Shown piece by piece: positions 3,883 through 55,708 of a DNA stretch of 64,000 nucleotides. Position numbers and translations under genes: made by a program. This DNA comes from Cyanidiococcus yangmingshanensis (lineage: Eukaryota > Rhodophyta > Bangiophyceae > Cyanidiales > Cyanidiaceae): contig VWRR01000003.1 in assembly GCA_013995675.1 (NCBI GenBank), positions 372,001 through 436,000 of the forward strand, read 5' to 3'. The notes beneath the pieces are model-generated. The model saw only the letters and a program-made list of their open reading frames with translations. It was not told the DNA's origin and searched no databases. Numbering within the stretch: position 1 is the first letter of the stretch; each line of letters begins with the position of its first letter.

Positions 3883-4561
3883 CTACTGCACACCGCATCC
3901 ACAACAACCGCTGCTTGCTGGTTGCGAGTCATTTTTTCGATTCCGTTTCGATTCGTACTCACCTTCATGGTGCAAATCTTTCCAGGCTCGCTCGCTTCCA
4001 ACGAAGGAGTCGTCGCTTTGAGACAATGCGGCTCTGGCCGCAGCCAAAAACGCCCGCTCTACATTGGTGCCAGCGCGAGCCGACACCTCCACATACTGCT
4101 CAGCGCCAAGCCGTCGAGCCAAACGAGCGCCCTCTTCCGTCAAGACAACTTGAGCAATCGCTGCTGATCCCTGCAACAGCGCGCGATCTCGAAGATCGAC
4201 TTTGGTCCCGAGCAGCACGAACGGCACCGTCGAGTCAAAGTCCTGCATCTCGGCCAGCCATCGTTTCTCACAGTGCTGCAGCGTCCGACGATCTACCAAG
4301 GAAAAACACAATATAAAGACATCGAGCCCTGGATGATAAACATATTGTCGGACTTCGTCAAACTCTTTCTGGCCAGCACAAGTCCCAGATGTTGATCTCA
4401 ACGAGCTCGCCAGCGCCCAGCTTCCGAACGGCAGTGTGCGAATCAAACGTTGTCGGCAAATAGGCGTCAGGAAACTCTCCCAGAGCAAACCTGGTTGCTA
4501 GTGACGTTTTCCCAACCCCTCCATCGCCAATAAGAACACATTTGACCCGTTTCATGGACAT
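3883..4561 (-). CDS. Rho-family small GTPase (one +1 frame change)
   Basis: A membrane-anchored molecular switch of the Rho/Rac family. The start is taken at the ATG at 4561 (MSMKRVKCV). G1 is GDGGVGKTS; the switch I area reads PTTFDS, close to the Rho PTVFDN; G3 begins WD; after it the other frame reads AGQKEFDEVR, then a Rho-like FILCFSLVDRRTLQ, then G4 GTKVDLRD and G5 EVSARAG. A few extra residues after G4 lie where Rho proteins carry their insert. The tail SSGCCGCGVQ ends in a CxxQ box, suggesting prenylation. G3 is split: the bases read TGG GAC T TGT GCT GGC CAG, so one T after GAC (near 4381) must be skipped to give WDCAGQ. Everything before and after is well conserved, so I infer an assembly indel or +1 shift rather than an old pseudogene. 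It is divergent from the hydrolase gene. Confidence 0.8.
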
Positions 4562-4751
4562 AAAATTCTGTTCTGGGAAGACACCAGCACTCGTCGAAGG
4601 AGGAAATTCAAAATCACGGGAAAGTTGGCGGCTGCGCGACCCAGCGCGTTGCGGCACCGACCGGGCCAGCGACACCCGCGACTACAATGTTTTCAACGGC
4701 GTTGTGACCTCGTAGTACCTGCATGTCTTTTTTGATGCTTCAGTCGAAACG

Positions 4752-6275
4752 ATGAAAGGCCGAAATTGGGTCAGCGCTCTACAAGGACCGGCTTGTGTTT
4801 CGTTTTATCGGTCGAAGCGAGGTCACGACGAACGTCTCCCGAGCGACGACGCTGGTGAGCGTTCGGGGACGTTGCTCATCGCTCGGGTGGCCACGCCGTC
4901 ACCCGATGATTATCGTTTGGTCGCTTGCATGGTCAAGTTGGGAGACTGGGATGCTCGTGACGGATCATTCGCCGAGTCTGGGCCCGATCACAGTGCTTGG
5001 TTGCATTCCAGGTGTGGGCGCAGCGCACGCCATGTGGTTTCCGCTTTTGAACGAGCTTGCAGGGCACTGCGCTGCAGCGAACTGGAGTGCGAGGGTGCTA
5101 TCTTGCGTGCTTGATCGATAATCGTGGCTGCGGTGGGTCGGACGCCTACCCGCCCAGGCCTACTTGTCAGTGTCGTTCGACCGCCACGAGGCGTCGCTAC
5201 CGGCACTGGTGGACGGTGGATGCCCTAGCCAGTGACGCGTGGGACGTTCTCGAACATGTGATCGCGACGCTACGTGATTCCGAAAAGGTTCATGCAGACA
5301 CACCGATTCGCATCATTCTTCTTGGCCATTCGCTTGGCACGGCAGTGGTGTGTCGCATGCTTCTTCTGCAGTCACGACGGCGACAACGAATGCCTATTTC
5401 AGGCGTTTTGCTCATGTCGATGCACAGAGGCTGGCTGCGAGATTGGGTTCCACCCAGCATACGGGCGCTGAAAGCCTCTGTGCAATACTTTTGGTGGTAC
5501 CTTCGAGTGTCGGCCAGCTCGTCATCGGTTCTGAAAGACCCCAAAGAGCTGCTTCCATTGCTCTCCAAAAGGGCGTCGATTGATCTTAGTCTGCACCTCA
5601 GCGATCGTTTTCTTGCTGAATGGCTGGACCTGTCGACAATGAACCAACTTATGCATCTGATGCCAACAAGCTGCCGACAGTGCCTGGTTGACGACTTCGG
5701 CTGAGGCGGGCGCGGTCGACAAGGCTGGCGCAAGCCGAGATAGCGTCGGCCCTCACACTAGAAGGCTTCGCCGTCACGAATGGTTCCTCCGCCAGTACAC
5801 AGCCGACTCGTATCAGATGTTTCGAGCATGGAACCAAGCGTTGCATGACTCACGTACGTCTCGGAAACTGGTGGATCTTTTCAACCTTCCCGGAACGCTC
5901 GGACAATTGCACGCAATTGGACAGCACCGACTAACCCGACAGGACTTGGTTCAACTCCGTCGACAGATTCCGCACAGGACGATACTTGTTTACGGTCGAA
6001 AGGATCCTGTAACGCTTCCGCGTGGATGCCGCGCGCTCGCGCATGCGCTCGGTATCACTGCGGTGGAGCTTCCCGGAGCGCATCTCATCACAGAGGAGTC
6101 TAAGGATCTACTCGGTCGCATCGTACAGATGATGTGCTACGACCACGAAGATTTCACTTTGGGCTTACGGAGGGAACTTGAAATCGTGAATCATTCGCCA
6201 ACGCAGCGCTCAGGAACGCTTGGACGATTATCAGAGGCGAATAGGGGGCTCATCAGCGATCAGTACAACGCATGA
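4752..6275 (+). CDS. Alpha/beta hydrolase, read in shifting frames
   Basis: A serine hydrolase of the alpha/beta fold; the substrate cannot be told. In order: an oxyanion-region strand (ITVLGCIPGVGAAHAMWFP, about 4988-5045), the family signature ACLIDNRGCGGSD (about 5104), the nucleophile elbow ILLGHSLGTAVV (about 5315) with Ser, the acid strand TILVYGRKDPVTLP (about 5980) and the catalytic His in LPGAHLITEE (about 6070). These parts lie in different frames, joined by +1 changes at about 4962-4982, 5092-5103 and 5690. The last reads GTT GAC GAC T TCG GCT, again a T after GAC. The ATG at 4752 opens the first frame with a coherent N-terminus. The elbow, acid and His are all intact, so the enzyme looks functional if the frames are one gene. 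The helicase is convergent and ends 17 bp downstream. Confidence 0.7.
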
Positions 6276-6291
6276 ACGGAATGGGCTGCCT

Positions 6292-9149
6292 TCATCTTTG
6301 TACGGACAAGGAGGCTCGGTCCGAGATCTCTGGCAAACGCTCTAGGGAGCGCGCCCTGAGCAGGAGTCTGCCTGGTCCCGGTTCAGAAATGCCTCGCCTG
6401 CGAGAACGCTTTCTGACTTCCTTTAGAGTCGACTCGCTGAGTTTGGATCCGCTCGCGTGCCTTGACGTTCGCTCGGACAAGGTTGACGTTCGCGTTTTCG
6501 ACGCCTGAAGCTGCTCAGGGCGCCATTCCTCGCGCTCGCTATGCGCAGCAGAGAGCTCTTCGAGGAACAGCGAAGGCTGCTGATTTGTGTTTGCATCATC
6601 CGCACCTTGATCATGGCTTGCTAGGATCGTGCATCGTTCTCGCGCACGAGTCAATCCGACGTAGAATATGCGTCGCTCCTCTTCGAGATCGACATCGGGA
6701 AAACTGAGCGGACACGCCCCATTGACAGCTCTCAGAATGAATACGAATGGCCATTCTTTGCCTTTGGCATTATGCATTGTGGAAACCGCCACTGCGTCTA
6801 ATGGCTCGCGCTGACGTGCATGAATGAAGGCTTGGGTGCCCTCTTGCCACACATCCTGCAGAGAGAGCAACAATCGATACAGTGGCTCGAACCAGGTCTC
6901 CGTTGCTGGCTCGGCGGCGTTGGCATCCTCTTTGGAGGCTCGCAAGGGAGTCGCCGCCTGACGTCGGCGACGAGCGAGTGCGTCAAAGAGCTGTTGACTG
7001 GTTGGGCTCGGATCCTCTCCCCCGAATGGTTTCAGCTCGCGGCCAGTCGAGCCGTCGCGGACCGTTGGAGGAAACCGCTGGCGCAGATGCATAAGACCCA
7101 GGACACCTCTCTGTCGTTGAAAGGGTTACGCGCTGAGCCCTCACCTCCGCATCGATATGTTGAGCGAGATGGCGCAGGATGCGGCTGGTATCGTGTGGTA
7201 TTCGCAGTCCATGACGATGAGCGGTTTCACGGGCGAGCTCCTGAGCTGCCTCCGAGCATACGCATGAGGCGAATATCGGAGCCTTGCTCTCGCGCAAGCA
7301 CCAACAGTCTTTCGTAGGCGCTCAACAATGCTCTGCATGCTTTCCATTGGCCGCGACTGAGTTTCGGACGATCCTCTGAGGTCGGCACCGCAGACGCTCG
7401 TTTAAAGCCGGGAACCAGTCGCTCAGACACCGTGCTGATCGCCAGTCGCCCACTGCTTTGACCGTCCTGTTCAGAGTCGAGAACAGCGCCGTCCTGGAAG
7501 CCCTCAAAGAACGCAGCGGCATGGTGAACCATGTTACGAACGACATGCATGATTGGAGCGCCATGGCATCGCTGCCCCTCTTGGCCAATACAAGCCTTGG
7601 TCAGCGCGTGCATGGACGGCGCATAGACTCTACAGGCATTATCGAGCAGATGAAGATCAAACTCATTCACCATCAGCAGCAGCAAAGCTGATAACAGGGC
7701 TCGCCTGAACTGAGGGCTTCTCGCCACACGCGCTCGACGCTGCCCGGTGGGATTCGGAGCCCGCGGATCTATTTGCGGTTCACGCGCGACAATCCTCATC
7801 TGGTCTGCTCCAGCATATGGAATTCCTGCCTGTTTCAGGGCACTTCGGACGACCTCCAAAGGCTGCGCAATACGACACAAGATGGCCATGCTTCGCCACG
7901 GAATTCCTGCGCTCGAGTGTAGATGCACCAGCTCCCTTTGAATGTAGGCAATTTCGTCATCGAAGCAGCGTCCGACAATGATGCGAACTCGAATGTGCTC
8001 GTGCTCTGGTAGTGGATCAATGCTTTTCGCTAGACGCCGCTCGTTATGCTGGATCAGAGCGTTTGCACAATGCGCGACATTCAATGGACAACGGAAACTC
8101 TGACGCAAAAACAACAGTTTTGCTCGCGGAAAGAATCGTGAAAACTCCGTCATGAACTGAGGACGGGCCTGTCTCCATTCGTAAATGCACTGATCGTCAT
8201 CACCTGCTGCGCAGATCGAGCTCGCATAGCGTTGGACGAGGGCCCTCAGTAGACGCAACTGGCTTGCACTCGTGTCCTGGAACTCGTCGACGAGAATCAC
8301 GTTGAGACCATTCGGAAAGAGAGTCGGCCAATGCGCATCCGCCTCAAGCAACTTCACTGCCATGACAATCATGTCATCAAAGTCGATACAGTTCAGGTGC
8401 TGCAGCCATTTCTCATAGAGGGCGTAGACAAAGTCAACGAGAGGCCACTGGAATGCCGTCTCCTCGTCCAGCTCCAGCGCAGGCGGCGGAATGAAGGTTG
8501 CCTTTCGCTCCGCGATTTGAACGGATATTTCCTTCACCAATCGGTCATGAGGTGACTTGGGATCATGCTCGGTGGCGAGACCAGCCTCTTCACCCTCCAA
8601 GCCCCTCAGATCGTGCTCGTTGAAGAGCGGACACGGACACGACGGGGGTTGCGTCAGGGAGGCCTGCTGTCGCCTACGATAGCGCTCGATTGCTTCCCGC
8701 AAAATGGCCCGCCGCTGGGTATGAGACAGTACGCGCATATGTGGACGCCGTTGGCAAATGCGCATCAGCGTCGCCGACTCGGCAGACTCGACAAGTCGCC
8801 TACCGATGCCGTGCAGCGTCTGGAATGATTTCCCCAGGGTCTCACGCCCGTTCTTCGTCAAAGCATCAAGTCCTGGCATCCTTTCTAAACGGTCTTTAGC
8901 CTCCTCGACGCCAGCGCGGCTAAACGTCACAAAGAGGAAGTCTTGATACACCAGCTGTCGACGTTGCACGAGGTACGCTAGTCTGGCCAGCAGCGTGTGC
9001 GTCTTGCCAGCACCTGGACTCGCCGCTACCAGCAGGGACTCATCCACCGGCGCAAGGACGACCGCTTGCTGTTCTGACGTCAATCCTTGCAGAAGCATCG
9101 GATGAGTTTTAACCTCCGATTCAAGCAGTCTCAGATCCGTTTCCATCAT
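6292..9149 (-). CDS. UvrD/Srs2-type superfamily 1 DNA helicase
   Basis: A 3'-5' DNA helicase of the UvrD/Rep/Srs2 group, expected in the nucleus or an organelle for repair or removal of recombinase. The start is the ATG pair at 9149/9146; the longer frame to 9179 begins with TTG. Motifs in order: I (VAASPGAGKTHTLLARLAYL), Ia (FVTFSRAGVEEAKDRL), II (VILVDEFQDTSASQLRLLRA), III (CAAGDDDQCIYEWRQARPQ), IV (FLRQSFRCP), V (VAVSTMHNAKGKEWPFVFI) and VI (EERRIFYVGLTRARER). Motifs I-IV lie in the first frame; the 2B-like middle runs in a second frame (about 7250-7110) and motifs V-VI in a third. Both changes are +1, near 7225-7280 and near 7105-7120 (ACC C TTT CAA or close by). It is divergent from the bS6 gene, whose start is 149 bp away. 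Confidence 0.85.
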
Positions 9150-9297
9150 CGTGGACGCACCAGACGTTTTCGGGAACAACCTCGCCTGCTACGCCATCGG
9201 TTCGCGCCACGATCGGTCGGGCGGCCGCCACGGGGCGCGCGTCTTGTTTTCTGCGACGCTTCGCAGGTCTGTTTGCCTGAAGCGACGTCGCCAACGG

Positions 9298-9666: not shown

Positions 9667-9942
9667 GCGTGGCGCTGTGACCAGTCGCCGAGCCCAACGT
9701 GCCGCAACGAGCCCGCGAGCATCGCCTACGTTCGTAACGGCGACTTCTCCGGTCAGTGGCCTGGAAATGTTCGTAGAGGAGTTTGAAAAACGACACCCCA
9801 CAGGTGTAGCCGTCTACGACGCCTATCGACTACAGGAAAGTCCCTTTCGGGGGAATCCATCAAGCAACAAGCCAAAAAATGATGCGAAGTAGATCCGAGC
9901 GATCGCTCAGCGCTAGGCGATTTGTTTCATTTGCGAATATCC

Positions 9943-16700: not shown

Positions 16701-18133
16701 TCACCTCGGGGTACGCTCATCCAACCGAATCGTTTCATGCTGCTCACGTTGCAGTGCTCGCCAGCCGATATCTCGCCGATAAAACGCATCTGGCCAATCA
16801 ATCTTCTCCACTGCAGTATATGCCAACTGCTGTGCGCTCGCAAACGTCGATGCTCGAGCAGTGATGTTCAAAACTCGCCCGCCTTTGGCAATGAGCTGTC
16901 CCTGGGCATCCCGAGCGGTGCCAGCGTGGAAGACTTTGACACCGGGGATCGTCTCGGCCTGTTCGAGGCCTCGAATGACATCTCCACTTCGGTACGCTCC
17001 AGGATATCCTGGCGATGCAAGCACGACCGTCAATGCTGCCGTTTTCGAAGCCCAATGAAGCGGTACTCGATCCAGGTTGTTTCCAGACACAGCAGCCGTT
17101 TCGTAGAGCACTGGCAACAGATCCGATTCAAGCAACATACAGAGCACTTGACACTCCGGATCACCAAAACGAACATTGTACTCGAGCACTTTGAACATGC
17201 CATTGGGTTCAATCATGAGACCGCAGTAGAGCACCCCTCGAAAGGGCGTCCCTTCAGCGACCATTCCAGCAGCGGTGGGCTGAACAACCTCCGCAATCAC
17301 TCGCTCGGTAAGTGCGGCTGTTACCACTGGTGCTGGAGCGTAGGCACCCATACCACCAGTATTGGGACCTCTGTCTCCATCGTATGCTGCCTTATGATCC
17401 TGTGCTGGTAACAGCGGTAGCACATCCAAACCATTCACCAATGCGAAAAAACTGGCTTCCTCACCGGACAGATAGTCTTCGAGGATGACTGTTCGACCAG
17501 CAGCGCCCAGCGTTTTTTCTACAAAAAGCGCTTGAAGCACGTTTTCCGCCTCTGCTTTGTTCCATGCAATGAATACACCTTTTCCAGCTGCAAGTCCATC
17601 CGCTTTGATCACCACTGGGTACGCTGCACGACGCTCTAGTGCCGCCATGGCCTCCTCCAGTCTTTCGCAACAATCGTAGGCGGCTGTTGGAATCCATGAC
17701 GCTTCATAAAAGCCTTGGCAAACGCTTTACTACCTTCAAGTTGGGCAGCAGCCTGACTAGGCCCAAAAGCGTGCACCTGCATCGCCTGCAACGCATCAGC
17801 GAGCCCAGCGACGAGTGGAGCCTCTGGACCGATCACAACCAGATCGATCGCCTTCTCCTGAACGAAACGACAGATAGAAGGTATATGCCCAATATCAAGC
17901 GCTGATTCACACTGAGCGAGACGCTCCATGCCCGGATTGCCAGGGGCCGCGTACAACTTCCCGAGGAGCGGCGACTCGGCAATCTTATCACAGAGAGCAT
18001 GTTCGCGTCCGCCACTGCCAACAACTAGGACCCGCAACGAAGCCCATAACCTCCTCGCGTTAGATCGATGACGACGACGACGACCTCCAGTTACCCAAAA
18101 GCAACACGGTTCACGTCCTTGCCACCGAGTCAT
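16701..18133 (-). CDS. purD: Phosphoribosylamine-glycine ligase
   Basis: GARS catalyses the second step of purine synthesis, joining glycine to phosphoribosylamine with ATP. The N-terminal domain begins LRVLVVGSGGREHALCDKIA and includes VVIGPEAPLVAGLADAL. The ATP-grasp part has YPVVIKADGLAAGKGVFIAW and the metal site LEYNVRFGDPECQ; the C-terminus ends with the family's YRRDIGWRAL. It is monofunctional, as in bacteria and plants. An ATG at 18133 precedes about 30 residues before the fold; further ATGs lie at 18253 and 18292, allowing a plastid presequence. The two halves lie in different frames. The junction at about 17,665-17,680 reads GCG AAA GAC TG GAG GAG GCC, so here the change is +2 (or one base missing), again just after GAC. 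The helix EEAMAALERR continues smoothly into the grasp domain. Confidence 0.9.
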
Positions 18134-18400
18134 ACCGCAGCGCTTATGCAACGGAGCCAGAAAGGCCGCTGTCACCAAGCCATCACTGCGCTGTACTCGT
18201 CGAGACGCTCCCCATCGACGATCACGTTGATCACGAAACCCGTCAGAAAACATGGTCAACCATGAATGACTCGAATCCACTTCTATATCCATTCTAGACC
18301 AGGGCTTGTATCCTGGTCCGCAGGTCTTTGGCTTTGCACAAGTGTTCGTCGAGCCAGTGACCAACTCGTTTTTCGAAAGCGTTGACGTGGCTTAACCGGG

Positions 18401-18485: not shown

Positions 18486-21400
18486 ATGGCATCATTGGCG
18501 AAAAACAAAGATGCTCTGGTAGATGCTGGAACGAATGAGGCCACGTGGCTCTCGCCAGAACTCGTGAAGGATCTGATCAGGCTGGAGAAGCTGGACGCAG
18601 ACCTCCCTGAGAACCGTCAGACAACCCATGCGAGGGATCGAACCGATGAAAGAATGGATGCACCAGGGATCGACACCGGTAAATGTTCCTGGTCTAGAGC
18701 CAAACCAGTTTCCGGAAACGCCCCGTTGCTCGATCGTCTGTACACTACGCTGGGAGACTTGGATCCGAAGACACTGCCCAAGGTTGCCTCTACGCTGGCC
18801 CAAGCGGGACACTACGGCTCATTGGTGCGCATCATCGCAATCACAGGCGGTGCAACAACGCTTCTATCTCTGCTGCCGACCAAGTCTCGTTTGACGAGCC
18901 ATCAGATCGCCCTGCTTGCCTATTGCTGTGGCGGAAAGGCCGTCCTGCGTCGAGCACTTGACTTGACGCGTTGTCTTGCGGACTGGAACAGTTCAGGAGA
19001 AAGCGAACGGGCGACCGTTGCTTGCCTGGCGCTGGCATTAACGTTTGGCTTCCGTTCTGTCTGTGTGGCTCGCTATCGAACGGCAAGGGCTCATTGTCCC
19101 CTGCACGGTCTCGTCTGTGATGCTGTTCTCGATGCATTCTGGACCGAAATAGACTATATAGAAGCGACGCATCAGCAGTTGGAGGCACAGTGGCGATCAC
19201 TGCTCCTGTCGAATGCTGAAGCGCAGTCACTGGCCTCGGGAAGCACGTTTTCCACTGGTTGTAACTCTCCAATGCTGTCGACGGAGGACCAATCCATGAC
19301 ATGGAGTGGCGAGGCATCGTCCCTGAACGAGGAGCCACGGCAGGTGTACGGAAAGATGGCCATAGCGAGAGAAACGACATGCTGTTTGAAAAACGATTCC
19401 GCTGAAGATCATCAGGAGCGCGTCCATGACATTCAGGTTGCACGTTCTAGGCTCATGCGACGAAAACCAGACTATGTCATTGTGGCCAGTCGAAGAAAAG
19501 CACTGGACCAGTTACGCGCTGCAGTCGCTTACGGAGCACCGGTGCTTCTCCAAGGAGAGTCAGGTTCCGGAAAGCGTTCCATACTCCATTACCTTGCTGC
19601 AGAGACAAACCGATCGGTGACGACCTTTTACTGGGATCGACTCGGTTTCGAAGAGGACGCTTTTCTCGATGCCATCGCGATGATTGCACCAAGTGGCCCT
19701 GGTCGCTTCCAATGGCGACTGGGACCAGTCGGAGAAGCACTCGTTCAAGGCCACTGGCTGGTTATGGAGGGCCTCGGAACCAGCACCCACGCCAGTCGAC
19801 GTTTCGCGACCAGCATGGTTCACCAGCTTGCCAGTTTGCGACCGGATGATGTCTTCGAGCTCCCCGGACGAGGCCTCGCGCTGCAGCTGCACATGAACTT
19901 TCGCCTGTTCGTCACCAGGTCTCTATCGTATGCGGAAACAGTAACAACAACAACAACAAACGCGCTACAGGATCGTTCATCATGGCACGGTTGGATGGTT
20001 ATCTCATTGACGCCCTATTCAGCTGTCGAGCGTCGCCAAGTGCTCGTCCAGCGCTTTCCAACCAGTGCAGCTTGGATAGATCGTGTCCTCGCCTCGGTGG
20101 ATATCTGTGCAGCGTCCTCTCAAAAGAGTTCAGGATCGAACCGCAGTCCTGGCTTGACGGAAGCCGTCCGCTTGGTCGCTCGCTTGGAACGCATTCAGCA
20201 AGCGCAGCAGATGCCGCTGACCCCAGACACCGCACTGTTGCACGCCATGGATGTGCTGCTACAAAGCGAGCACAACTGTCGAGACGTTGCGCTGCGTCAA
20301 CTGGCCAGCCTGTGGAGTGTATCGGAGCATGAGGCCACCACCTTGGCGCTACAGGCCAGTGCGTCTCCACCGATGCAGGCGCTTCTGGAGCGCATGGTAT
20401 TGGCACCGACACAACCGACTTGTATGGCGCTTCGCCAACTTTCGGTTGCCCTTGAACACGAGGAGCCGGTCCTACTCATCGGCGAAGCCGGTGTTGGCAA
20501 AACCTATCTGGTGCAGGAGTTGGCACGTAGCCTCGGTCGCCATCTCGTCGTGCTGAACATGTCTCAACAGAGTGATCTGGCGGAACTTCTCGGTGGTTAC
20601 CAACCCGTGGATGCTCAGAGACTGATTCTGGATTTGGCTCGTCAACTGGAGATCGCTTTTGCTGCGACGTTCTCGAGTCGTCAGAACACAGCATTGTTGC
20701 ATCAGCTTCGTCAAATGGCTCGTCGACGGGATGTTGGTCGTCTCGTACGCCTTGCTCGCGGCCTATTGGCCCGGGTCGGTGCAAGTGCTCGGCTCAACGA
20801 CACCAATGTCATCCATTGGGAACAGCTTCAGCGACTTGTTCGACAGACCGAGGACGCCTATGGTACTGAAGTTGTTCAGCGTCGTCCACGAAGGCCTGCA
20901 CCGAAGGCATCCGCGCCGGAGCTGGACAGTGAACGTCAAGGAGCAGTAGCAGCAGTAGCAGCACGTCCACACAAACGCGCTGGAACAGAAACCCAGGCCC
21001 AGGGCGCTACCTCGAACGAGTCCATTCAGACAGGTTCTTGGCACGATGAGAACCAAACTTCTGATACCGATGAGGCTGCGTTCGAGTATCCGAGTGGACC
21101 AAGCCTTCGCTTCGCCTTCAAGGAGGGCATGCTCGCCGCTGCCATTCGTCAAGGAGACCTGGTCCTGCTCGATGAGCTCAACTTGGCTCCGCCCGCGTGT
21201 CTGGAACGACTCACAGGCATCTTGGATACATTGAACGAGCCGCCAGCGAGCGCTCCGGCTGCTCGTCTCGCTGCCTGGCAGACCAACGAGTTGGCACACT
21301 TGGCTGGCAGTGGCATGATCCGTCATCCCGACTTTCGACTCATTGCTTGCATGAATCCCGAGACGAATATCGGCAGACGAGCACTTCCACCAACGTTACA

Positions 21401-23872
21401 AAGACGTTTCACCGCCATCATTCTCTCGGATGATCTCGTCGAGTCGGACCTGCATCAAATCGTGGAGCACATGTTCACCAGACGCTTGTGCAGCGACAGG
21501 CATCAGGTTGCATCAGGAGGTCCTGCACTCACAGAACGAGTGGTTGCTTTCTATCGAGAGGTACGGACACTGAGTCGCAGTCAACTGGCCACGGCAGGAG
21601 ACGAGACAGCACCTCGCTTTTCGCTTCGAGCACTGGGTCGCATGTTGCGTCTGGCGACGCATCTCACTCGGCAGGGACTCGATGCTCGTCGAGCACTCTA
21701 CGAAGGTGCCTGTCTTGGATTTGCCTCCTATCTCGATGAAGCCAGTCGTCAACGCGTCCTTGGGCTGGCGCATACGCTTCTGGGTCCCGAACTCACCGAG
21801 AACGACTTGAGCCAACCAGTCACCAAGTTGTTGATGCCGTCATCATCGCTCGCCAGTCGAGCAGTGATCGACCTTGGCGGTCAATGGCTCGCAGTCTATC
21901 CTGGTCATCAAGCGACTTGTCCAGCAGGGACACCTCCATGCCGAGCAGGAGCGTTGAACGATCCCCAAAGGCTGATGCCAGGCCATGATCTGGAGCACCA
22001 GCCGAGAACGACCACCGCATTCACATTTGTCTGTACACCGACCATGGAGCGTGCTCTTTGCGATATCGCGAGAGCGTTGGTCGACGGTCTCAGCAAGACA
22101 CCCGTATTGATCGAGGGGACCACAGCAGCTGGCAAAACGGCGCTGGTCCAGTACATCGCTCAATGTACTGGCCATGAACTCATTCGGTTGAACCAACACG
22201 AACACACCGAAGTGAGCGAATATCTCGGTCGTTATACAATCGGACCGAATGGTGATCTGGTCTTTGTGGAAGGACCGCTCGTTCGAGCAGCCCGAAATGG
22301 GCACTGGGTACTGCTCGATGAGTTAAACTTGGCCCCAGGTGACGTGCTCGAGTCCATCAATCGACTCTTGGATGAGAATCGCGAGCTCATTATTCCCGAG
22401 ACGGGTCAAGTGATACAAGCCCATCCTCATTTTGCGTTGTTTGCGACGCAGAACCCCAGCGGTGGCACGGGTATCGGTGGTGCTCATGCTCGCTACGCGG
22501 GTCGCAAGTCGTTATCACCAGCGTTTCGTTCACGTTTCATGCTCATTCATCTTCCGGAAATGAAGGACAAGGAGTTGGTCCAGATCCTCTGTGTACGTTA
22601 TGCACTGCCGACGAGCTTTGCGACAGCCATGGTGAATGTTCTGCGAGATTTGCAACTCCGACGATCTGCGGAACGAATCTTTGCCGGTGCCGAGGGTCTG
22701 GTCACGGCCAGAGACTTGTTTCGATGGGCAAGTCGTCAGCCTAGGGATCGTCGTTCGCTTCTCTTCCATGGACGTTGTCTCTTGGTGGAACGTATTCGAC
22801 AGGCTCCTGAACGAGCGGCAGTCTGGCGGATTCTCTGTCGCCATGTGGGTGTCTCAGCACAAGGCGTGACGACGACGACAAACGCCGCGGTTCATGAACG
22901 CAATCAGATAGAAACGCTGAATACAATCGATGATGACGACGACAATCTGAACGATGCGGTGACGGCATGGGAACAATGCTCATGGGCACTGGAGACACTC
23001 CAGCATGGGGACCAGGGATGCGCTGCCTCGTCCAGGTCTGTTCCAGAACAAGTGTGGAGACGAGTGCTTCACGTGGCCCAGGAATGCGGGCTGGTGCTGG
23101 TTCCAGCCCTGCGTCGACTCCTTCGACTTGCACTCCACTGTATCATTCATCGTGAGCCAGTGCTCTTTATTGGCGAGACCGGTATCGGCAAAAGCACTGT
23201 CTGTAGCGTACTGGCCACTGCATTGGGACGTGAACTCATCACCATGAATGGACATCGTCATACGGAGGCAGCGGACCTCGTTGGACGTTATGTGCCGTGC
23301 TCGGCACCGTCCGTTGCATCCAAGCCATCCTTTGTCTGGCAGGATGGCCTGCTCACCATGGCCATGCGTCGAGGAGCCTTTCTACTGCTCGATGAAGTCA
23401 ACATGGTCGATGACTGCTGTCATTGAACGACTGAACAGCGTCCTCGAGCCATCAGGCCAGCTGGTGCTCAGTGAACGGGGCGGAGACCCGCTCCAAGTCG
23501 TCCAGGCAGCACCCAGTTTTCGGGTCTTTGCCTGTATGAACCCAAGTGGTGACTTTGGTAAGAAAGAACTCTCCACAGCGATTCGTAATCGTTTCACAGA
23601 GATTTGGGTTCCTTTCGAAGGCTCCTGGAGCGATCTCTGGCCAATCGCCAGCAGCTTGCTGGCCAAGGAACCTCCTGCCATCAGGAGACTGTGGCAGGAG
23701 GCACTGGCCTGGCTCCTCGAACACCAGCAACGAGTACCAAACATGCCAGCAATGAGCATTCGAGATCTCACCGGCTGGATTCGAGTCTACCGAGCTGCCT
23801 GCAACCGTTGGAGAATGGCTCCTGGCTTGGCTTTGGCCCAGGGCATCGAGGCCGTTTGGGGTCGTCGTCACC

Positions 23873-23903
<31 letters not shown>

Positions 23904-26900
23904 TCAAGAGAAGGAGGAGACGCTCCGAGACATGGCTCCCTCTGGCCTGGATCGAGCAACCTTTTTATCGAGACTGGGTTTGGATCCACAGACCGACCTA
24001 GATGCTGCCTTCTTTACCGAGACGGTGCCACAAACGGATCGCTGGTGCTCGACTGCACCCACTGTTCGAAAGCATCTCGCTCGACTCTATCGCGTCTTGG
24101 ATGCTGATCAGCGACCGATTCTACTGGAGGGCCCACCTGGTGTCGGCAAGACGCAGCTGGTCATCTACCTGGCCCAGTGTCAGTCTGTGCGGTTGCATCG
24201 TGTGAACTTGAGCGAGTCCACCGAGATGATCGACCTTGTCGGGACATTTGTTCCTCACGAGGGCGGGTTTCGCTTCCAGAAAGGTCCCCTCTATGTTGCC
24301 ATGGAACAAGGAGATTGGATTCTCGTTGATGAACTCAATCTGGCGAGTCAGTCGGTCCTGGAGGGCCTCAATGCAGTGCTGGACCATCGTCGACTGTTGC
24401 AGGTACCCGAGTTGGCCCTGTCGATTCAAGCAGCAGCGCAGTTCCGCTTCTTTGGTACCCAGAACCCAGCTGGAACGAGTGCGGGTAGACGACCACTGCC
24501 TCACAGTTTTCTCAATCGATTTTGGTGTATTCCATGTCAAGCGTATGATGTTGCCGACTATGAACAGGTGCTACAGACACTGTTTCCGGAACTCGACGCC
24601 ACCGCATGCCATTGCTTAACGCACTGGTGGCCACAACAAGTACGCAACGCGACTGGTCGGCATGCCAACCTTCGGGATGTGCTGCGTCTGGCGACACTCT
24701 GGCACGCCTATCCGCAGACACAGGTCACAGACTGGGCCCGACTACTCCTGCCACAAGCTTTACGGCTGCAGCCACAGGAGCGAGCGCAGGATTTGCCTCG
24801 AGACGAACCGCAACGACCGCATCTGGTTGGGATATCGGAATGTACGGAACGACGAGAACAACAACAACAACAACACTGCATGTCTTGTTGGCGACCCGGG
24901 GTCTCGTTTCGTGGGCCAGCGCCAGTCCTGGTGCGAGACCTGAACATGCCATCGTTTGATGCTGTCGTCGAGCGTGAACTGCTTGAACAAGGTAGCCTGG
25001 CCACGATGACCGTCTCGAATGCATCCGGTCTCTATCATCAGATTGGCACCATGCTGGGTTCGTCCATGACCTCATTGGAATATCATGGCGTTTACAACGC
25101 CAGCGATGAACAGCAGACGCGACCTAGGCAGCACAGCAACGCGTTTGCAACACCAGACGCTGTTCCCTGTCGAGCAGCGAAGGACTCGACAACATCATGG
25201 GCATTGTATTGGGGACCTGTTCGGCTTCCATGGAGGGATGTTCAGGGTCCCACCGACCGAGGCTTGCTAGCTGAATCGTTTGCCACACCATCATCATTAC
25301 CGCTTTTCCGACCCGAACAAGCCTCTTACTGGACAGCACTGGCCATTGGCATTGCGCAACGATGGCCGTGCCTGCTTGTAGGCCCAGACGCGGTTGGCAA
25401 AGCGAGTCTGGTCCGAGCCATGGCCCAGCTCTTGGGTGCTCCCCTAGCGGAGATCCTGCTGAGCAACCAGGCCGATTTGACGGAACTACTTGGTGGTTAT
25501 CGTCAAGCGATGGAAACAGACCCGATTCTGGCATCTACGGGGACCAAGTCAGCGCGATGCGACCAAGCACCTGCTGCTCGGTTTGTTTGGCAACCGTCTC
25601 GCTTGTTGCAAGCGATTCAACAAGGTCATTGGGTCTTGTTGCGTCATGTGGAGGCCCTGTCTCCAGCCCTTGTCGATCGCCTGAATCCGTTACTGGAAGA
25701 GGGCGTCACTCATTTTTCAGTACCCGAAGCGCCCCTTGAACAACACGATGGGACCAGCGAGCAGGAGTGCACCACCCGAACAAGCGGGAGGAGCGACGCC
25801 AATGCTATCGTGGTGCATCCCCAGTTTCGTATCTTTTTAACCGTTACAACAACAACAACAACGGATTCCATGGGGTTTGCAGGCGTGTCGGAAGCGTTAC
25901 AGAACCGCTGCTTGACGCTCTGGATACGACCCGGTGTCTCGTCCTCGGGATGGACTCGACCTGTTTTGGATGGTGTCGCAACCACCAGCCATGCACCTGG
26001 GACCGATGCATTGGCATCATGGGTGGCCCCGTCAACCGCTTCCGGACTTGTGCCCGATGCTCAAGCGATACATCCAGCGTCCAACGACCACAAGCAGCCA
26101 GGACGACAGACGTGGTCACGACCGGCTCGAGGACATTCATGCTGGCCAGCACTGCGTTTTTTCTACGACCCACTGCGGGTGTCCATCGAGGAGGATCTGG
26201 AACGGCTTTGGCAGGTGAGCCACTGGCAGGACCAGGGCGACCACAATGATGTCGAGCGACCAAGTCTAGTCGGTCATCAGTCGCAGCCAGCCACCGACTG
26301 GCAGCGACACGGAGACGCGTCGAGGAGATACCAAGCGCGACACCTGGCCATTCCGTGGATTCGTCAACAACATCGGGAAGCAGCGGGCCTCTTTCTGGTG
26401 CTCGCATCGTCCGCAGACTTGGGCGCAAGACTGGCCCTCGTGGGTTTCGAGCCAGCGTCGCCCATACGAGACCTGCTCCATCGCCAGACGAGTGCAGCAC
26501 TGGCGTCGCTGTCGACGCAACCATGGCTGGATCGACTCCAGTCTATGGATATGGAGACAGACGCGGAGACGGCAACATGCTTGACGCTACTTGTGGTCTA
26601 CTGGCGATGTCTCTGGCCATGGGCAGTACCGTGGCCACAACTTGCAACGAAACCGACGCTGACCAGGGAGACGATTGTCGCGATGCGTCTGGCGGCCTTG
26701 CAACACATGGCCATGAACGCGAGCGTGAACAACCTGCCCAATGACGATACCCGTGCGGTGAACGAGGACAGGTACACCAACAGCACGGGGCGCAGGTGGC
26801 GGTCAAACGCTATCCTGGTCGCTGCCTGGCAAGCCATCCGAGCTGTTGCTTGGCCCCAGGCACTCGATCCCTCATCGGGAAGGTGTTTGCCTCAGTGGAT

Positions 26901-29900: not shown

Positions 29901-32900
29901 CGCAACCCAAATGCCAACGGCAAGGAAACAACACGAAGCGATGCACCTGCTGGTCTGGACAGCATGCGGTCGACTCGTTGAGCAACTTGCGCTCGGGTAT
30001 GTGGGGCCCCTTGCTGCAACTGTGGGCGCTGCTTGCAGACAGCGGTCCCTGTTTCGACCCGAACTTGTTTCCATGGGCAACCATGCTGCAAGTTCTGGAA
30101 AGCTACTATGGACGCTATCGGAGTCCTCATTCAGGAGACGCTGCATGCAACCATGGACCGCCTCGATCATGCCTGGCAGAAGCAACGAGAAGTGCTTGGT
30201 TGGCAGGTTGCGTCAGCCCTGGCAGAGTCATATCGATTGGGAACGCTATCGGGATACAGTTCAGCAGGGCCAGCGGCTTGAACGGCAGCACCTGCGAGCA
30301 TTGGCACAACAGTTGGATAGCCAGGTCCAGCCGTTGCTCTACCAGTATCGACAGGAAAGATTGCGGCGACTCGACGAACGTCCTCGGTTCCATGAGACAG
30401 GTTTTGACAAGTCGAGCGAAGCCTGTCGAACGCCCAAAGCCATTCAGTACATCGCTGGCCTCGTTCAGGATTTGGAGGCCTACGCCCACGCTCTATCCGT
30501 ACAGTTGTCGCAGCAGGTGACGCTGCAATCCATAGAGCGCTCACAACGACAGGTGCTGCAGTTGCTTCGTGAGCGCGGCCTACGACGCTCAGGTTATGTG
30601 GAACCGCTTCAGCTGCACTGGCCACAGACTGCACTCTGGCTGGGACGTGCTCCCTGGCGAAACCTGGAACCGACTCGCGGAGCTTTGCTCGATGAGGCAC
30701 TCTTTAACCTGCTGGATGCACTCTTGGTTCTAGATGAACAGTTCTGGGCCGAGACGGCGAGGCAGTCTTCCTCCTCCGGAATGCGTTCAGTGGCCTCGCT
30801 ACGATCGATATTGCTAGGTCTACTGCAGGACATGGCCGACCAACGCCTCTACTGGTCTTGTTGGAAGGCGAATATCGACAGGAACGGAGCAGGCACCAGA
30901 TATCCGTGGCCCTCTGGAACCGATGATGAAGAGGTGACTCGAGCGGCTGCTCATCGCTCATCCGTAGCAATCCATCTCGACACAAATGGAGCCAGCACAA
31001 GCCAAATACGCACATCCATGGGCACTGAGGAAACAGACAAGGACAACGCGCTAGGTAGGGCACTGGCAGCGACGGAGGAACTCACTGTGCTGTTGAGCTG
31101 TTGGCCCTCGACGGAAAGGTTGCAGAGCCGTCTGCAAGCACTCGTTGAACGAATCGACATGCTTCTGGCAAAGGGTGATTTGTCTGGAGCAACCGCCGCT
31201 GCATCGAGTTTGAGGAGCCTGCTCAACTCTTCGCTGCATCAGGAACTGGGGAATGTGTCGCTCCCGCAGAGCGATGTGCTTGAGCGGCTCTGTCATGGTG
31301 CTGCCGACCTCGTCCAGGTCATGCTCGAGACGAAAACCAAGGAAGCTGAATGTGCTCCTTGGGCGTCGACTGGAACATCCGAGCGCAGCAGCGGCAACGC
31401 GTCTAGCGCAGCAACGAATGATCTCTGGACGCAGTTCCAGAGCGCTCTGGAGGAGGCACCAGACCAGACTCCACGACCTCTGCAGACGATGCTTCGTTGG
31501 CGACCCAGTACCTTGTCGACATCAACTGATTCGCATGCTTCTTGTGCGCTCGATTGCAGCCAGTTGGAAGCAATCGTCGATGTACTAGCATTGCTTCACG
31601 AGCAGCTGTTGGTGCTCGCGCAGCGACTTGCCCAGATCGCGACCATGCTGCTGACGTTGCTGGCCAAAGCGTCTGTTTCTGACACTGCAACCGAAACGAA
31701 CAGCGAATGAGCAATGCTGTGAGGGACCTGGACTCGCAGCGGATGGCGCTGTGGATGCCACTGCTCGTGACTGCACTGCCCAAGTGAATGCCACGGAGAT
31801 TGGTGAGGAACTTGCATCCATGCGGTGCTCATCGACCTCTTCGGAGACTGCTCCATCGGAATGCGATGCTTCAACCGATGCCGAAGCACTCGACGTGCCA
31901 GCGGACGCTTTCGATACAACAGACCAGGGTCGTACTGCTTCAGAGCGAGGAGCGTAACCCAGATGACGCAGACAGCAGCAAGGATGGTCCTGGTCCCAGG
32001 CGCTCTCTTTCTGATCAGGAGTCCCAGCTGGCCTCCGAATGCAGTTTGGATTCGCTGGACAGGGCGGCCCAAGCAGAGCACGCGGAATCGTCAACACCGC
32101 GGATGCCGTCTCCTCCCAACGGTATGGCGGACGAGAACGAGGATGATGATGATGATGATGAGTCTGATATGGATGCTTGGACCACGCCAGCGAACGCCGA
32201 TGACGACCAAGTGTCGAAGCATGGCCATGAGACACGAGACGAAACCGCCAGCGATGATCAGTCCGGTCCAAGTGCTGACCTGTTTCTGCCAGGTGATCGC
32301 AACGATGACGATGCAGAGTCTGAAACGACAAGCGTGGTCGACCAGGAGACGTCAGGGATGGAGGCCATAACCTCTGCAGCTGTTCATGACCACGAGGAAG
32401 CGGAAAGCGGATCATCCGATCATGGCTCAACGACTGAGACTGCCTTGGATGCCAGCACGTCCGAAAGACCAACATCGACGGATGTTGTTGTGGAAACAGC
32501 CCCGATGGCGTCACCTGCGGGACAAGCGAACGCTTGGGGCAACGCCACCCACACAGGTAGAGCGAACGAGTTATCGGAGACTTGTCCAACGTCATCGATG
32601 CCGATGGCTTGGTCGGACACCACGGAGCCTGTCATTCTTGGATCCGAGCCAAGAGCAAGTGCGACGGCGAAGGTGAACGGCCTCGAAGCGCGGAGTACGG
32701 AAAAGGCCTTGGACGGAACCTCCCCTGCCATGGACGCGTATTCCAACGCGACGCTGTCGAGACGCGCAGCCTTGTACCATCAGGAATGCGAATGGACACG
32801 TAACGAGTTGCAGGCGTCGACGGAAACGGAGCCAATGACCCTTGACGAGAGAACCTCTCCAGGCGAACAGGTCAGTAGCCAGCACGATGATGCGCGCCAT

Positions 32901-34077
32901 TGGAGATGTTGTGGAGCGAGCGACCGCTCTGTCGACGACAGCGCCACCAGCTGACCTGTCCGACCAGGATGCGGATGCCATCGTCGCGTTGCAGCAGCAG
33001 CAGCAGCAGCAGCAAGTCCAAGGATCATCTGGGGTCATGACCCGCGCATCCTCCTCATCGTCGTTGTCTACCGAAGCCAAAGACGAGAAAACACCTGCGA
33101 GTCAAGACCGAGCGCGAGCAACAGCGACGCCCGAGCCCATGGATGTGGATGCCGCCATCTTCCAGACCGCTCTGACAAGGAAACAGAGCCACTGTGCTGG
33201 TGGCTTTTGGAGCGTCGCCACGAGGCCTCCTATTGCCGCATTGACTCGCCGTCTAGAGCCGATTCTGGAATACAATCAGCTGACTCGTTTTGCAGGGGAC
33301 TTTAGGACAGGCAAGCGACTGCATATGCGTCGACTGGTCGACTACGTGGCCAGCAACTATACTCGTGATCGGATTTGGATGCGTCGAGTACGACCGGATC
33401 GCAGACAGTACGACATTGTCGTGGCGGTGGATGACTCGGCAAGTATGCGCGAGTCTGGCGCTTATCGTCTAGCACTCGAGTCGTTGGTGGTCGTTGCAAC
33501 TGCCCTGCATCGTCTCGAGCTGGGCCATCTCGGCGTGATACGCTTTGGTGTTGATGCCCAGGTTGTTCATGGTCTCGCGGATGGTATGCCTGCTGCTGGA
33601 CCGCTCGGGGATCGACTGGTGCGTCAGTTCACGTTTCAACAGGAGGCAACCAATATTGCTGCGATGCTGCAGTGTGCACTGGCGATGTTGACGGAAGCTC
33701 GCCAGCAATCAAACTGGGACCCTTGATCCTTGGCAACTGGTACTGATTCTCTCCGATGGACGTCTCGGGGATCGGGAGGCGCTTCGAGCACTCGTTCGAG
33801 AGGCCAACGCTCATCGACAGTGGTTGGTCTTTTTCATTCTGGATGAGGTGGCCGGACATACGACCCCGGAAGCGTCGTTTCGGGCCACCGCCACGACGTC
33901 GGTGCTGGACTATGAAGCAGGTTGCGTTCACCGAAGCAGGGACGTCTACAGATACGACGCTATCTGGAGGATTTTCCTTTTCCGTTCTATGTGATTGTGC
34001 AGGATATGGAGGCGTTGCCGTTCGTGTTTGGTGACGCGTTGACCCAATGGTTGGCAGCGAGTGAAGTTCAACGCTGA
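18486..34077 (+). CDS. MDN1: Midasin (Rea1/Mdn1), giant ribosome-assembly ATPase
   Basis: A dynein-like AAA+ machine that strips assembly factors from nucleolar and nucleoplasmic pre-60S particles. About 5,190 codons from the ATG at 18486, normal for midasin. Six P-loops are visible: GESGSGK (19553), GEAGVGK (20481), GTTAAGK (22115), GETGIGK (23172), GPPGVGK (24130) and GPDAVGK (25381). Walker B motifs (LLDELNLA, LLDEVNM) follow several of them. A long Gln/Leu-rich linker runs to about 31.7 kb, then an Asp/Glu-rich region, then the MIDAS domain (YDIVVAVDDSASM at about 33,411) with the DxSxS metal site, ending at 34077 with FPFPFYVIVQDMEALP. Seven frame changes are needed, all +1: about 23,413, before 31,708, 31,920-31,955, 32,845-32,950, 33,724, 33,911 and 33,937-33,955. 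Between the first and second the frame is clean for about 8.3 kb. Confidence 0.93.
23869..23907 (+). repeat. Coding CAC/CAA triplet run in midasin
   Basis: Consecutive CAC then CAA codons encode a His tract followed by a Gln tract in the segment between AAA modules 4 and 5. Similar short CAA/ACA runs occur near 19,941, 24,857, 25,849 and 29,250 in the same gene. Confidence 0.9.
32992..33015 (+). repeat. Coding CAG run (poly-Gln) before the MIDAS domain
   Basis: Seven CAG and one CAA codon encode eight glutamines between the acidic region and the MIDAS domain of midasin. A GAT run at about 32,142-32,162 encodes an Asp tract upstream in the acidic region. Confidence 0.9.
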
Positions 34078-34865
34078 GCAAACGTCTAGGCACTTGATGA
34101 CTGCGAAGTCCATTGCCTTGGCAGATATCCAGGGCGAGCGCTCACCAGAGCTATGGGTCTGCAGAGTGCATCAAGGGAATGGATACGCAGGGAGAGCAGC
34201 GCCTGCTCCTGAATTGGCGTTCTATCGGCTCGGTTGTGGCGAACAGGCACCGTTCACAGATACAGAAGACAAGTGTCGGCAGCGAGAAGAAATACGGGGT
34301 TGTACAACGTCGTCCCAGGTCTCTGAACGACGTAAAATCATATCGGCCACTGGAGCAGATAGGGTTTATTCGGATCGTTGCGACGACCTCGAGTTGAGGG
34401 AGCCGCAGACGCCTATGATTGGCGAGCGTTTGAACGTCCCGTGTCGAGAAGCTTTCAAGACATCTGGACAGGCGAGCGCGAGCACGTACAAACAGGGCGC
34501 GTTGGTGGACAACCTCAAGGTCATTTCGAGAGTGTCCATCGAGCGAGTTGTTCGTTACCTCACGATCGGCTTTGACAAGTAATCCAGATGAGCATGACTG
34601 CATCTTCACCGGGCTCGACGAGTAGGGTGAAACTGCCTATGCAAGCATCTTCACACAAGGTCGTGTCAAGAACGGTCTCTTGCGATGGGGTTATCAACCC
34701 TGCGGGTGGATCCGGCTCAGCTGAAACTCCTCTATGGCCACAAACCCTCGAGTGCGTTCACGTCAGTGTGAAAAAGAGTTTCGATCAGACAGCGTGAATC
34801 TCCAGAGGCGTCAATGCAGCTGCTCGCAGACGACAAAAGGGATGGAAGCGCTCTTGTTTCGATCA
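34078..34865. other. Spacer between two converging genes
   Basis: About 790 bp between the midasin stop and the stop of the Rpp40-like gene. An open frame on the plus strand (about 34,061-34,582) has no family resemblance. Nothing else is seen. Confidence 0.35.
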
Positions 34866-36120
34866 TCATCCATATAGATCGCTTGATCGTGATGCCAACC
34901 AAAGAAACCAAAGACGTTGGTGCTTCGTGGAAGCGCGCAGGTTGGCTTGCGCTCCTCCTCTATCTGGTCTTGCTTCAGCTGGCAGCGCATGGTATTCGGT
35001 ATAAAGGACCACGTCGAGTGGAGTCTGTACGCTTGCCAAATGCAACGCCCAGACAATCGGTACAATCTGTTGATACCAACGATGTGGAAGGAGCGACCTC
35101 TTATCAGCGCCCCACTCATAGAGGTGAAAAGCGGCGCGCTCGTTTGTTGCAGCCTCAGGGTCGTCATCTACTGAGAGCGGCTTCAAATAATACTGGCACT
35201 CATCCTCATCATTCCGTTCCTGCTGCTCATCGATACCAAGCATCAACTGTCCAATAGCATCCATGACAGTCGATATGGTCTGAGCAAAAACGTTTCGATC
35301 GGCTGATTGTCGCTTCCTGAAACGCCTCGCAGAGGACTTGGCGTCTTGCTGTAGAGAGCGGACTTGTAGTGATGCCAGTACGAATTCGGGCTGCAATCTT
35401 CCTCTGTGAGTCTGGTGCAGCCACCAAAGGTGCCTCTACGCCATCAAGAGATGCAATTTGCCATAAAAAGGTATCGGGAATGCGTCCTAGGCAAGTATGA
35501 ATGCGCTTATGATACTTGCTATCTGGACGACTGCTTGCTTGACCGAGATCTATGACCACAAAAGCGCCGTCCCCGTAAACCGGATGTCTCTGCCGCTTTC
35601 TTCCCACGCGAGGGTTATGACCACGCCCGATGAGGCCCAAACGACGGTAAGTGTCCTCTTCCAGGTGCACCAGAAAACGTCCTCTGGAAGTCCATGGCGA
35701 GCAACCGGGACGACTTGAGTGCTAGCGCCGTCCAACGCTCTCGACGTTGAACCTGTGCTGCTTCGCTTGGTCTGATGGCCGCAGATGGAGCGTGTGACTC
35801 TTTGGGGATAATCTTGGGTATTTCGGGTCCTCGGTCATAATCTCTATCGAGTGGAAACTTTCTCAACAGGTCTGAGGGCGTGAGGTGACACTGCTGCGTC
35901 ACGAACGCGACTCGCTCCAACGTTGCTAGCTGCAGCCTTGATGGCTTGCTCCGTCGAGACGGTAACCTTGTCCTCCGAGGGCCACAAAACCAGAACGCCA
36001 ATGTAGGAGGCCAGCTCGATTTCATCGTAGAGCTTCTCCAAAGTCTCCAGATTCCGCACGGGCTTGCCATAGTTGCCACGTTGGCTGTGGCACTAGGTTG
36101 TGCTGCGGAAGCCACGCCAT
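34866..36120 (-). CDS. Rpp40-like RNase P/MRP subunit, frame-split
   Basis: Possibly the p40 protein subunit of RNase P/MRP, the tRNA and rRNA processing ribonucleoprotein. The central part SRGRFLVHLEEDTYRRLGL, followed by GRKR and, some 25 residues on, IDLGQASSRPDSKYHKRI, matches by eye the human RPP40 order of GKLILSLDKDTYEETGL, SGRK, a strand ending in IDL, and LDSKKYERI. The rest is too divergent to judge. The ATG at 36120 starts MAWLPQHNLVPQPTWQLW. The protein runs through four +1 changes: at about 36,040 (GGA GAC T TTG GAG), 35,885-35,935, about 35,677 (ATG GAC T TCC AGA) and about 35,396-35,400 (AAG A TTG CAG). Two of the four again have T after GAC. It is convergent with midasin and divergent from the next gene. 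Confidence 0.5.
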
Positions 36121-36465
36121 CGCTTCATCCGCAGACGCTTCCTCAGACACCTGCCTTGGCCTGTATGTCCGCAGCTATCAAACACTACGATTATTAGGAT
36201 TCCACTCTCCGCGACCCTAGTTATCACCAAAGAACCTGAAAACACTTCAAAAGTGTCACACGGAGAGGGCAACCTTGTCTTATAGACACGGGCTGGCTGG
36301 TCGTCGTGCCTTTCGAAACATCCTGGTGCGTTGGCGGAGCGAACGCGGAGACGCTGCAACAGCGGACAGACTTTCCCAGTGATTATTTTCGATTCTTATG
36401 CCTCTGGAGAAGATCTTGAGGTGAGTGATCAGAGCTAACCAGCAGAAGCGTGGTCCAGGACTTTT

Positions 36466-42513: not shown

Positions 42514-42545
42514 GCAAAGCAGGCCAATCTTCGAGTCGTGGAGCA

Positions 42546-50899: not shown

Positions 50900-50975
50900 A
50901 GGAGTGCCTGTACCTTTGATAGATCAGGCCTCGTAAATACGGTCAAACAGAATCTTTCTCGTCGATTTTCTCGCA

Positions 50976-53517: not shown

Positions 53518-53546
53518 GCGCCCATGTCAAAAACATTCGCAGAGCT

Positions 53547-55708
53547 TTAGTCGTCTAGGGAACGTTCCGTATCTGGCGTAGCGGCGCTTGTGTGCTCCCC
53601 ACGACGTCGGTAGCAGAGCTCTAAATCCTTTGGATTCCGCCATATTAACCAACGCACTGTACCCAAATTCGTATTGGGATCTATGACCTGGCCGCGACAG
53701 AGAATTTCGATGTCCTGTGGAGGTGGAATCTCTGTCTCAGAAGGTGATACGTCCGGGGGACTGCGACCGCCTATCTGGGACACTTTGTTGGCACCCGAGA
53801 ATGTGCGTTGGCTCCCTGTGGGTTGCTGTTCGGAGAGCTTTGTGGAGACATATGCCATTGCTTTTCGAATCCGCAGAATGCGAGGAGCTGTGAGCTTGCT
53901 CTGGCGCAGACTCTGCAGGGAACTACCGATTGCTGGTTCAAGGCTGAAAGATATTTTGATCTGCTCCTTGGCAAGCGTCCGATTGAAGCCAACAATGTCG
54001 ATTACCCATGATGGCATAAGCGCTGCTCCTTCTCGGAGCCATCAAAGCGATGTGCGAGCTTGTGGATGAGAGGCTCGATATGCCCAGCCTCGTTGATTAC
54101 CACAGGAATATCTCCTGGAAATACAAAGGGGGTCACAGCCGTGGGCTTTTTCTCCTGGGGCACCGGCGATTCGTCGTTTGATGAAGTTGCTGAAGACGCT
54201 GTCTTCAACAGATTCGACGAGTCTGCGATTTGCGGGTTATGTTTCAGCCACTGTTTTCGCCACCAGTGAAACAGTCCTCTCAATACATGCTCGCCGATAT
54301 TCAATTTTTGATCATCGGACTCTGTCTCGAGATCAATGTCGACAGCATAAACATCCGCATCACTCACGGTGCTCTTTCGCAATCGAATACCGAGGCTGCC
54401 CAAACGCGTATCCACGGTGAACCATGAAGGCACGTAAACGAGCTCATCAACCTCTTTCTGCACATCTTCGATGCTCCGGTTATTGCCGAAGCTTCGGATG
54501 CACAATGCCCGACAAACATCCCACAGATGGATTCCATCGTCACTGTCCCGCAAAAGCACGTGCCGTCGGTTATTCAAAACCCGATAGTCGACTACGGACG
54601 GCAAACCTTCAATGACGCATTCCTCGCTAGAGCCCTCCGCCCTGATTGGAATGCGTCGAAGATGAGACTCACCGAAGGCTATCCATGCCTCTTTCGCGTA
54701 ATTGTCCAATGGAGCCAAGCAAATGCGCAAAACCGCCTTGGACCAGTTACAAACTCGGTCTCTGTCTCTGGACTCGAGTTCATTGCCATATAGTCGGACG
54801 GTTTCTTTTGAGCCCCTCAATTCTGTGCGACACACTGTACCGTCGCGCGAGCCCGATAGGAACCAAGCAAAAGATGGTGGAGTCTCGATCGCCCACACCG
54901 AGTCGTTGTGGACATGATGAAAGGCGCTCAGACACCGCTGCTGGCGTATATCCCAGAGTCGAACGACCCCGTCGCTACCTCCGCTTAAGCATACGAGACC
55001 GTTAGAAGATAACTGAATGCACCGAACAATGTCAGCGTGGCCTTGTAACCGCACTTGGTCTTGGCCTGTGCGCAAGTCGTAGATTCGTATCGATCGATCG
55101 GAACAACCTGCTGCAATCGTCTGGCATCCTTCTGAACCATTCAACGAGCCATCTCGATGAAGGGTTGACGCAACACAATAAACAGAGTCGACGCCCTCGC
55201 TCTGAAATTCAGAGAAAGCTGCGAGGCGCTCGATGTCCCAGAGAATGAGACGACTGTCGAAAGCCGCACTGACAAACTGTCTCTTGCCGACGTTTGCTAA
55301 GGCGCGCACATAGTCTTGGTGTTCGACCAGCGTTGCCAAGCAAGAGCCACAAGCGAGATCCCAAACCTTTACTGTTGCGTCGGAGGAGCACGAGACCAAC
55401 GTCGGATATCCAGCGGGCGAAACGATATCGTTGACCCAGTCCGTGTGCTCTTCTAAAGAGCGCAAGTGTGCCCGTTTCGCAATGTTTCCACTCCGTGTAT
55501 TCGGGCCGATAAACCAAAGTCTGATCGACCCATCTCGACCAGCTGAAGCCAAAAAGTACTCACTCCCCTTTCCATCAGGGGTTCGCAGGGCCAGTCCTGA
55601 GTTAACACCAAATCGGTGCTGTTGCTCAGGAAAACGACACCAATACGTCACCGTCCTTTGCTCAGCTCTAGGATCTCTGGCGAAAGACAAAACTCCCGAA
55701 TCTGTCAT
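53547..55708 (-). CDS. WDR48: WDR48/UAF1-type WD40 protein
   Basis: A beta-propeller cofactor that activates the USP1/USP12/USP46 deubiquitinases. From the ATG at 55708 there are seven or eight WD40 repeats (for example SAGRDGSIRLWFIGPNTRS, DATVKVWDLACG, GGSDGVVRLWDIRQQRCLSA). The diagnostic second half follows: VVDYRVLNNRRHVLLRDSDD, IHLWDVCRALCIRSFG and YVPSWFTVDTRLGSLGIRL. The C-terminal DUF3337 region begins PSWVIDIVGFN and ends with the ubiquitin-like IEILCRGQVIDPNTNLGTVR and RNPKDLELCYRRR. The last 150 residues are in another frame: the junction at about 54,010 reads AAG GAG CA GCG CTT ATG, a +2 change or a missing base. The homology continues at once, so I treat it as one gene. It is convergent with the vinyl-reductase family gene, 29 bp away. 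Confidence 0.9.

Follow-up and report, generated by a model that had tools for sequence, protein, structure and literature searches.

Interrupted genes in the window

The window analysed here is a stretch of 64,000 bases (bases 372001-436000 of contig C14, which has 844,003 bases) from the red alga Cyanidiococcus yangmingshanensis, whose genome assembly comprises 12,072,675 bases over 20 contigs; the GC content is 53.6% in the window vs 54.9% in 20 sampled loci. The window harbors a midasin gene (18486..34071, plus strand), a UvrD-type helicase gene (6483..9149, minus strand), and an Rpp40-like gene (34817..36120, minus strand), along with genes for a Rho/Ras-family GTPase, an alpha/beta hydrolase, purD, and a WDR48-like protein, and in all of these, the coding sequence passes from one reading frame into another. 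An earlier note on this DNA had described pervasive +1 frame changes inside conserved genes, and the pattern proved real and more one-sided than had been claimed. When the midasin, helicase, and Rpp40-like regions were aligned, protein to DNA with an extra base and a missing base made equally costly, against uninterrupted relatives (P0001, P0122, and P0125, respectively), all 21 junctions were of the +1 kind (10, 6, and 5; two-sided p 9.5e-7, with the junctions treated as independent although they are clustered). The positions given below are good to a few codons and are looser in the weakly conserved part of midasin (31.7-32.9 kb).

The midasin gene was recognized from the alignment with P0001, the tblastn frames, and Pfam, and its C-terminal piece matches solved midasins. 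From the 165 matches, of which 120 were listed, P0001 (5337 aa) alone was used; aligned in overlapping pieces across 18486-34071, it gave ten +1 and no -1 junctions, near positions 23415, 30004, 30128, 30207, 31705, 31934, 32883, 33709, 33911, and 33939. Alignment with two stretches of P0001 yielded seven of these, and alignment of the whole gene added three. At ~30004, ~30128, and ~30207, the frame is restored within one long open reading frame, so that these shifts are invisible to a reading guided by stop codons.

In the helicase gene, the first 1.4 kb (7767-9149) is free of junctions, and the remainder contains six of the +1 kind, near 7766, 7711, 7686, 7253, 7069, and 6504. These positions come from P0122 (924 aa; six +1, no -1); the second reference, P0123 (915 aa), gave five +1 and no -1, and four junctions coincide exactly between the two. 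The four helicase matches also included P0124 (Cyanidium, 867 aa), which was left out of the alignment, and P0121, the window's own database protein. The helicase is a red algal nuclear gene, with relatives in Cyanidium caldarium too (P0124).

The Rpp40-like gene, identified by the alignments with P0125 and P0127 and by the Pfam domain Ribonuc_P_40, contains five +1 junctions, near 36051, 35933, 35689, 35322, and 34934, and no -1 junctions when compared with P0125 (434 aa, 403/433 identical). Comparison with P0127 again gave five +1 and no -1, with three positions identical to those from P0125; all three Rpp40 matches were aligned. P0125, a 93%-identical protein, is encoded on a different public contig of 8,332 bases (source code 'lgn', presumably Logan) and is continuous across the five places where the window breaks. 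For both P0001 and P0127, the longest contig on record measures 109,415 bases, so the midasin and Rpp40-like genes are probably neighbors there too.

The earlier note had rightly perceived +1 breaks in these three genes but had counted too few of them, namely, seven in midasin, two in the helicase, and four in the Rpp40-like gene. It had also stated that an independent assembly lacking the extra base would indicate assembly errors. P0125, P0127, P0122, P0123, and P0001 are all continuous where the window breaks, and none is of the same strain. Among the relatives recovered by protein search, there was no same-species full-length midasin or helicase, although the corrected F7 assembly might have been a source of one, and this counts mildly against the interpretation of the breaks as errors of assembly that we develop below.

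The remaining interrupted genes were delineated mostly by Pfam domains. The GTPase gene (3886..4681, minus strand) is split between two frames by one +1 change near 4360-4400, with Ras positions 1-54 in the open reading frame 4361-4681 and positions 56-160 in 3886-4497 (both minus strand), as the earlier note had it. In the hydrolase gene (4974..6272, plus strand; start provisional), changes are present, but two +1 by frame order, not the three proposed; the Pfam domain extends over the first of them alone, and no Pfam match was obtained for the third piece. Two further genes depart from the +1 rule, both as previously described. The purD gene (16704..18391, minus strand) has a single -1 junction, located where the frames overlap at 17639-17726, with GARS_N in one frame and GARS_A/C in another, and is supported by PDB relatives; the WDR48-like gene (53550..55714, minus strand) has one near 54005-54041, where the WD40 and DUF3337 domains fall in different frames.

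Database gene models built on the interrupted DNA

The frame changes have left traces in the database proteins derived from this assembly. The segments of the model F1559_003410 (P0126; window 34814-36900, minus strand) match the window exactly, and they are separated by five gaps. Four of these, of 28, 31, 25, and 34 nt, are all of length 3k+1, each absorbing one extra base, whereas the fifth, of 541 nt, brings in 92 residues of another open reading frame. The four gaps of 25-34 nt look like false introns that soak up the extra bases. That they are very short but real introns that restore the frame, as the gene model would have it, seems to us extremely improbable: once the junction is read through in the neighboring frame, the gapped stretches encode the very residues that the model skips and that P0125 retains. 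Furthermore, the whole species has 35-36 introns according to the gene tallies in PMC13353863 for two other assemblies, namely, F7 (4,832 genes, 36 introns) and NIES-4659 (4,884 genes, 35 introns); the text of that source mentions one gene with two introns, and its table and text differ by one.

The database helicase P0121 (window 7230-9149, minus strand) has 640 aa, compared with 915 and 924 in P0123 and P0122; it is out of frame from the first junction to the third and terminates just beyond the fourth. Proteins taken from this assembly are shortened, partly out of frame, or joined by what look like false mini-introns, and any tally of introns, truncated genes, or lost genes based on this draft would mislead. 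The significance of these observations lies in data quality rather than in biology.

Genome-wide excess of +1 changes

Outside the window, a hidden Markov coding-frame scan of 20 loci of 10 kb, one per contig (111.7 kb called coding), detected 24 +1 vs 4 -1 shifts (p 1.8e-4, with the junctions treated as independent although they are clustered). At least one shift was found in 16 of the 20 sampled loci. By extrapolation from the total count, every 4 kb of coding sequence would contain about one shift that the scan can detect. Another dense patch is apparent in L015 (contig C7), where a coding stretch at 5718-9601 carries five successive +1 calls.

The scan was trained on the same sequences that it scanned; on the reversed-sequence control, it called no shifts. 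Shifts simulated in 24 clean genes were recovered near the true place and with the right sign in 68 of 72 cases for insertions and, likewise, in 68 of 72 for deletions, with four and three stray calls, respectively, and a single call across the 24 untouched genes. Because insertions and deletions are recovered equally, the +1 excess is no product of the scan method, though some of the joins are doubtful. A Pfam search with 20 pieces from the sampled loci showed two pairs that fit one gene over the junction (an ABC transporter, and a desaturase with cytochrome b5), whereas most of the pairs searched shared no domain. In L009, where a pyrophosphatase lies beside FBPase, a -1 call may represent two adjacent genes; the 24:4 count, therefore, includes doubtful joins.

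Inside the window, the scan was far less one-sided, with four +1 and three -1 calls (eight and four, respectively, under the most permissive setting), and it missed most of the junctions placed by homologues; a -1 call that it made in midasin corresponds to two +1 changes in the homologue alignment. This is why the homologue alignment was used in the window. Independent DNA of a relative was also sought: the viral-contig search returned eight loci at 25-36% identity, which were set aside, and the genome-contig search returned none.

The breadth of the phenomenon bears on whether the interrupted genes are pseudogenes in this strain, disabled by real, strain-specific mutations. The lesions are, indeed, in the deposited DNA and missing from relatives, as such a scenario predicts. 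However, midasin, with ten lesions, the Rpp40-like gene, with five, and the others would all have to be broken together, with 16 of the 20 sampled loci hit as well, and both coding composition and high protein identity persist on either side of the lesions. We consider this scenario highly unlikely, in accord with the earlier note, which had also set pseudogenes aside.

Properties of the junction sites

At the 21 homologue-placed junctions, the shifted codon was never a stop, and in two of the 21 a stop was present within three codons. The information content around the sites was borderline when summed over columns (p 0.05), and the best column was unremarkable (p 0.51), both against a null matched for codon phase; a motif test on 18 sites gave p 0.014 when codon phase was ignored and 0.07 when it was matched. 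We claim no shared motif, given that the summed signal is borderline and the best column never unusual. Homopolymer slippage is not supported, as short runs are not significantly enriched at the 21 junctions: a run of at least two bases is present at 16 of the 21 (expected, 15.0) and one of at least three at five (expected, 2.8; p 0.14).

The distribution of the junctions, in contrast, is distinctly uneven. The first 11.5 kb of midasin contains a single junction, the rest of the aligned coding sequence (8.0 kb) contains 20, and the dispersion is 2.05 vs 0.95 (p 0.004). The densest patch, at 30004..36120, involves both strands and holds 14 of the 21 junctions in two convergent genes, namely, the 3' part of midasin (plus strand) and the Rpp40-like gene (minus strand). 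Furthermore, three helicase junctions within ~85 bases cancel out, and so do three midasin junctions within ~210 bases. Patchiness, the crossing of strands, and cancelling triplets are properties of assembled stretches of DNA, not of translated messages.

These features weigh heavily on the possibility of widespread programmed +1 ribosomal frameshifting, whereby the extra bases are real and the ribosomes skip them, one of the two options that the earlier note had left standing. The one-sided +1 changes in essential genes would be expected under such a mechanism, and the borderline information around the sites is at least compatible with it. Nevertheless, we regard it as very improbable, considering that the shifted codon is never a stop and no column stands out, that triplets of shifts cancel within such short distances, that patches extend over gene and strand borders, that the 93%-identical Rpp40-like protein is continuous, and that -1 junctions occur too. 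Pervasive +1 shifts are, moreover, unlikely because the gene numbers reported for other assemblies of the species are ordinary and the introns few, 35-36 in all (as tabulated in PMC13353863).

Programmed +1 frameshifting on a large scale is described for Euplotes, where stop codons specify the shift (PMC4759687, PMC10235951, and PMC5011710). The window resembles Euplotes in the many +1 frame changes within conserved genes, and differs from it in that the shifted codon is not a stop at any of the 21 junctions and -1 junctions are present. Were the extra bases real, pervasive non-triplet decoding would extend to a second lineage. One could also conceive of a strain-specific, genome-wide tolerance of +1 changes, in which motif-free extra bases gained since the split from the 93%-identical relative are skipped in translation, but we assign to this idea a probability close to nil.

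Origin of the frame changes

The extra bases are present in the assembly, insertion-biased over all samples taken together, patchy in distribution, and absent from relatives in other assemblies. We are highly confident that the frame changes reflect consensus errors of one base each in an insufficiently corrected long-read draft and that the genes are continuous in the cell; judging from the sequence comparisons, the extra bases are almost certainly errors rather than real DNA. We favor this explanation because all 21 placed junctions are +1, the bias is genome-wide, the 93%-identical copy is continuous, the junctions are patchy, and triplets cancel, and also because stops at the shifted codon and a homopolymer excess are both lacking, some junctions are -1, and gaps of length 3k+1 appear in the model F1559_003410 from a species reported with 35-36 introns. 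Thus, of the two options mentioned above, it is the insertion-biased assembly that gains support.

The argument that random indels should not be so one-sided does not hold for long reads, as insertions can dominate their raw errors. PacBio continuous long reads, if the consensus were under-corrected, would leave patchy single-base insertions and few deletions, without a strong preference for homopolymers. In the present case, the consensus errors would be mostly insertions, with few deletions, left in patches of under-corrected draft, and we infer that PacBio continuous long reads were used. A strong insertion bias without homopolymer excess fits such reads rather than nanopore reads. Indel errors that persist in long-read assemblies after insufficient correction have been described elsewhere, for example, in the published account of Kastor (PMC12007338). 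Like those assemblies, the present draft shows gene-fragmenting frameshifts and premature stops that are absent from relatives; unlike them, it has a strong insertion bias and no excess at homopolymers. The literature searched for Cyanidiococcus frameshifts and for THAL066 yielded no earlier report of these errors.

The window probably belongs to the draft assembly of strain THAL066 by Liu et al. 2020; for this strain, PMC10272599 gives RNA-seq data under BioProject PRJNA564651 (SRX6816975, SRX6816977, and SRX6816979). Table 1 of PMC13353863 lists 19 telomere-to-telomere contigs for F7 and 20 for NIES-4659, and PMC9812998 describes F7 (JANCYV000000000) as an HGAP4 assembly of PacBio reads with short-read correction by Bowtie2 and Pilon. 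Within the terminal kilobase inspected, telomere-like AATGGGGGG repeats are absent from both ends of contig C1 and from the left end of C14, and because such bare ends misfit telomere-to-telomere assemblies, the draft is probably THAL066 rather than F7 or NIES-4659; the repeats are present in the last kilobase at both ends of contig C13 and at the right end of C14, the contig that carries the window.
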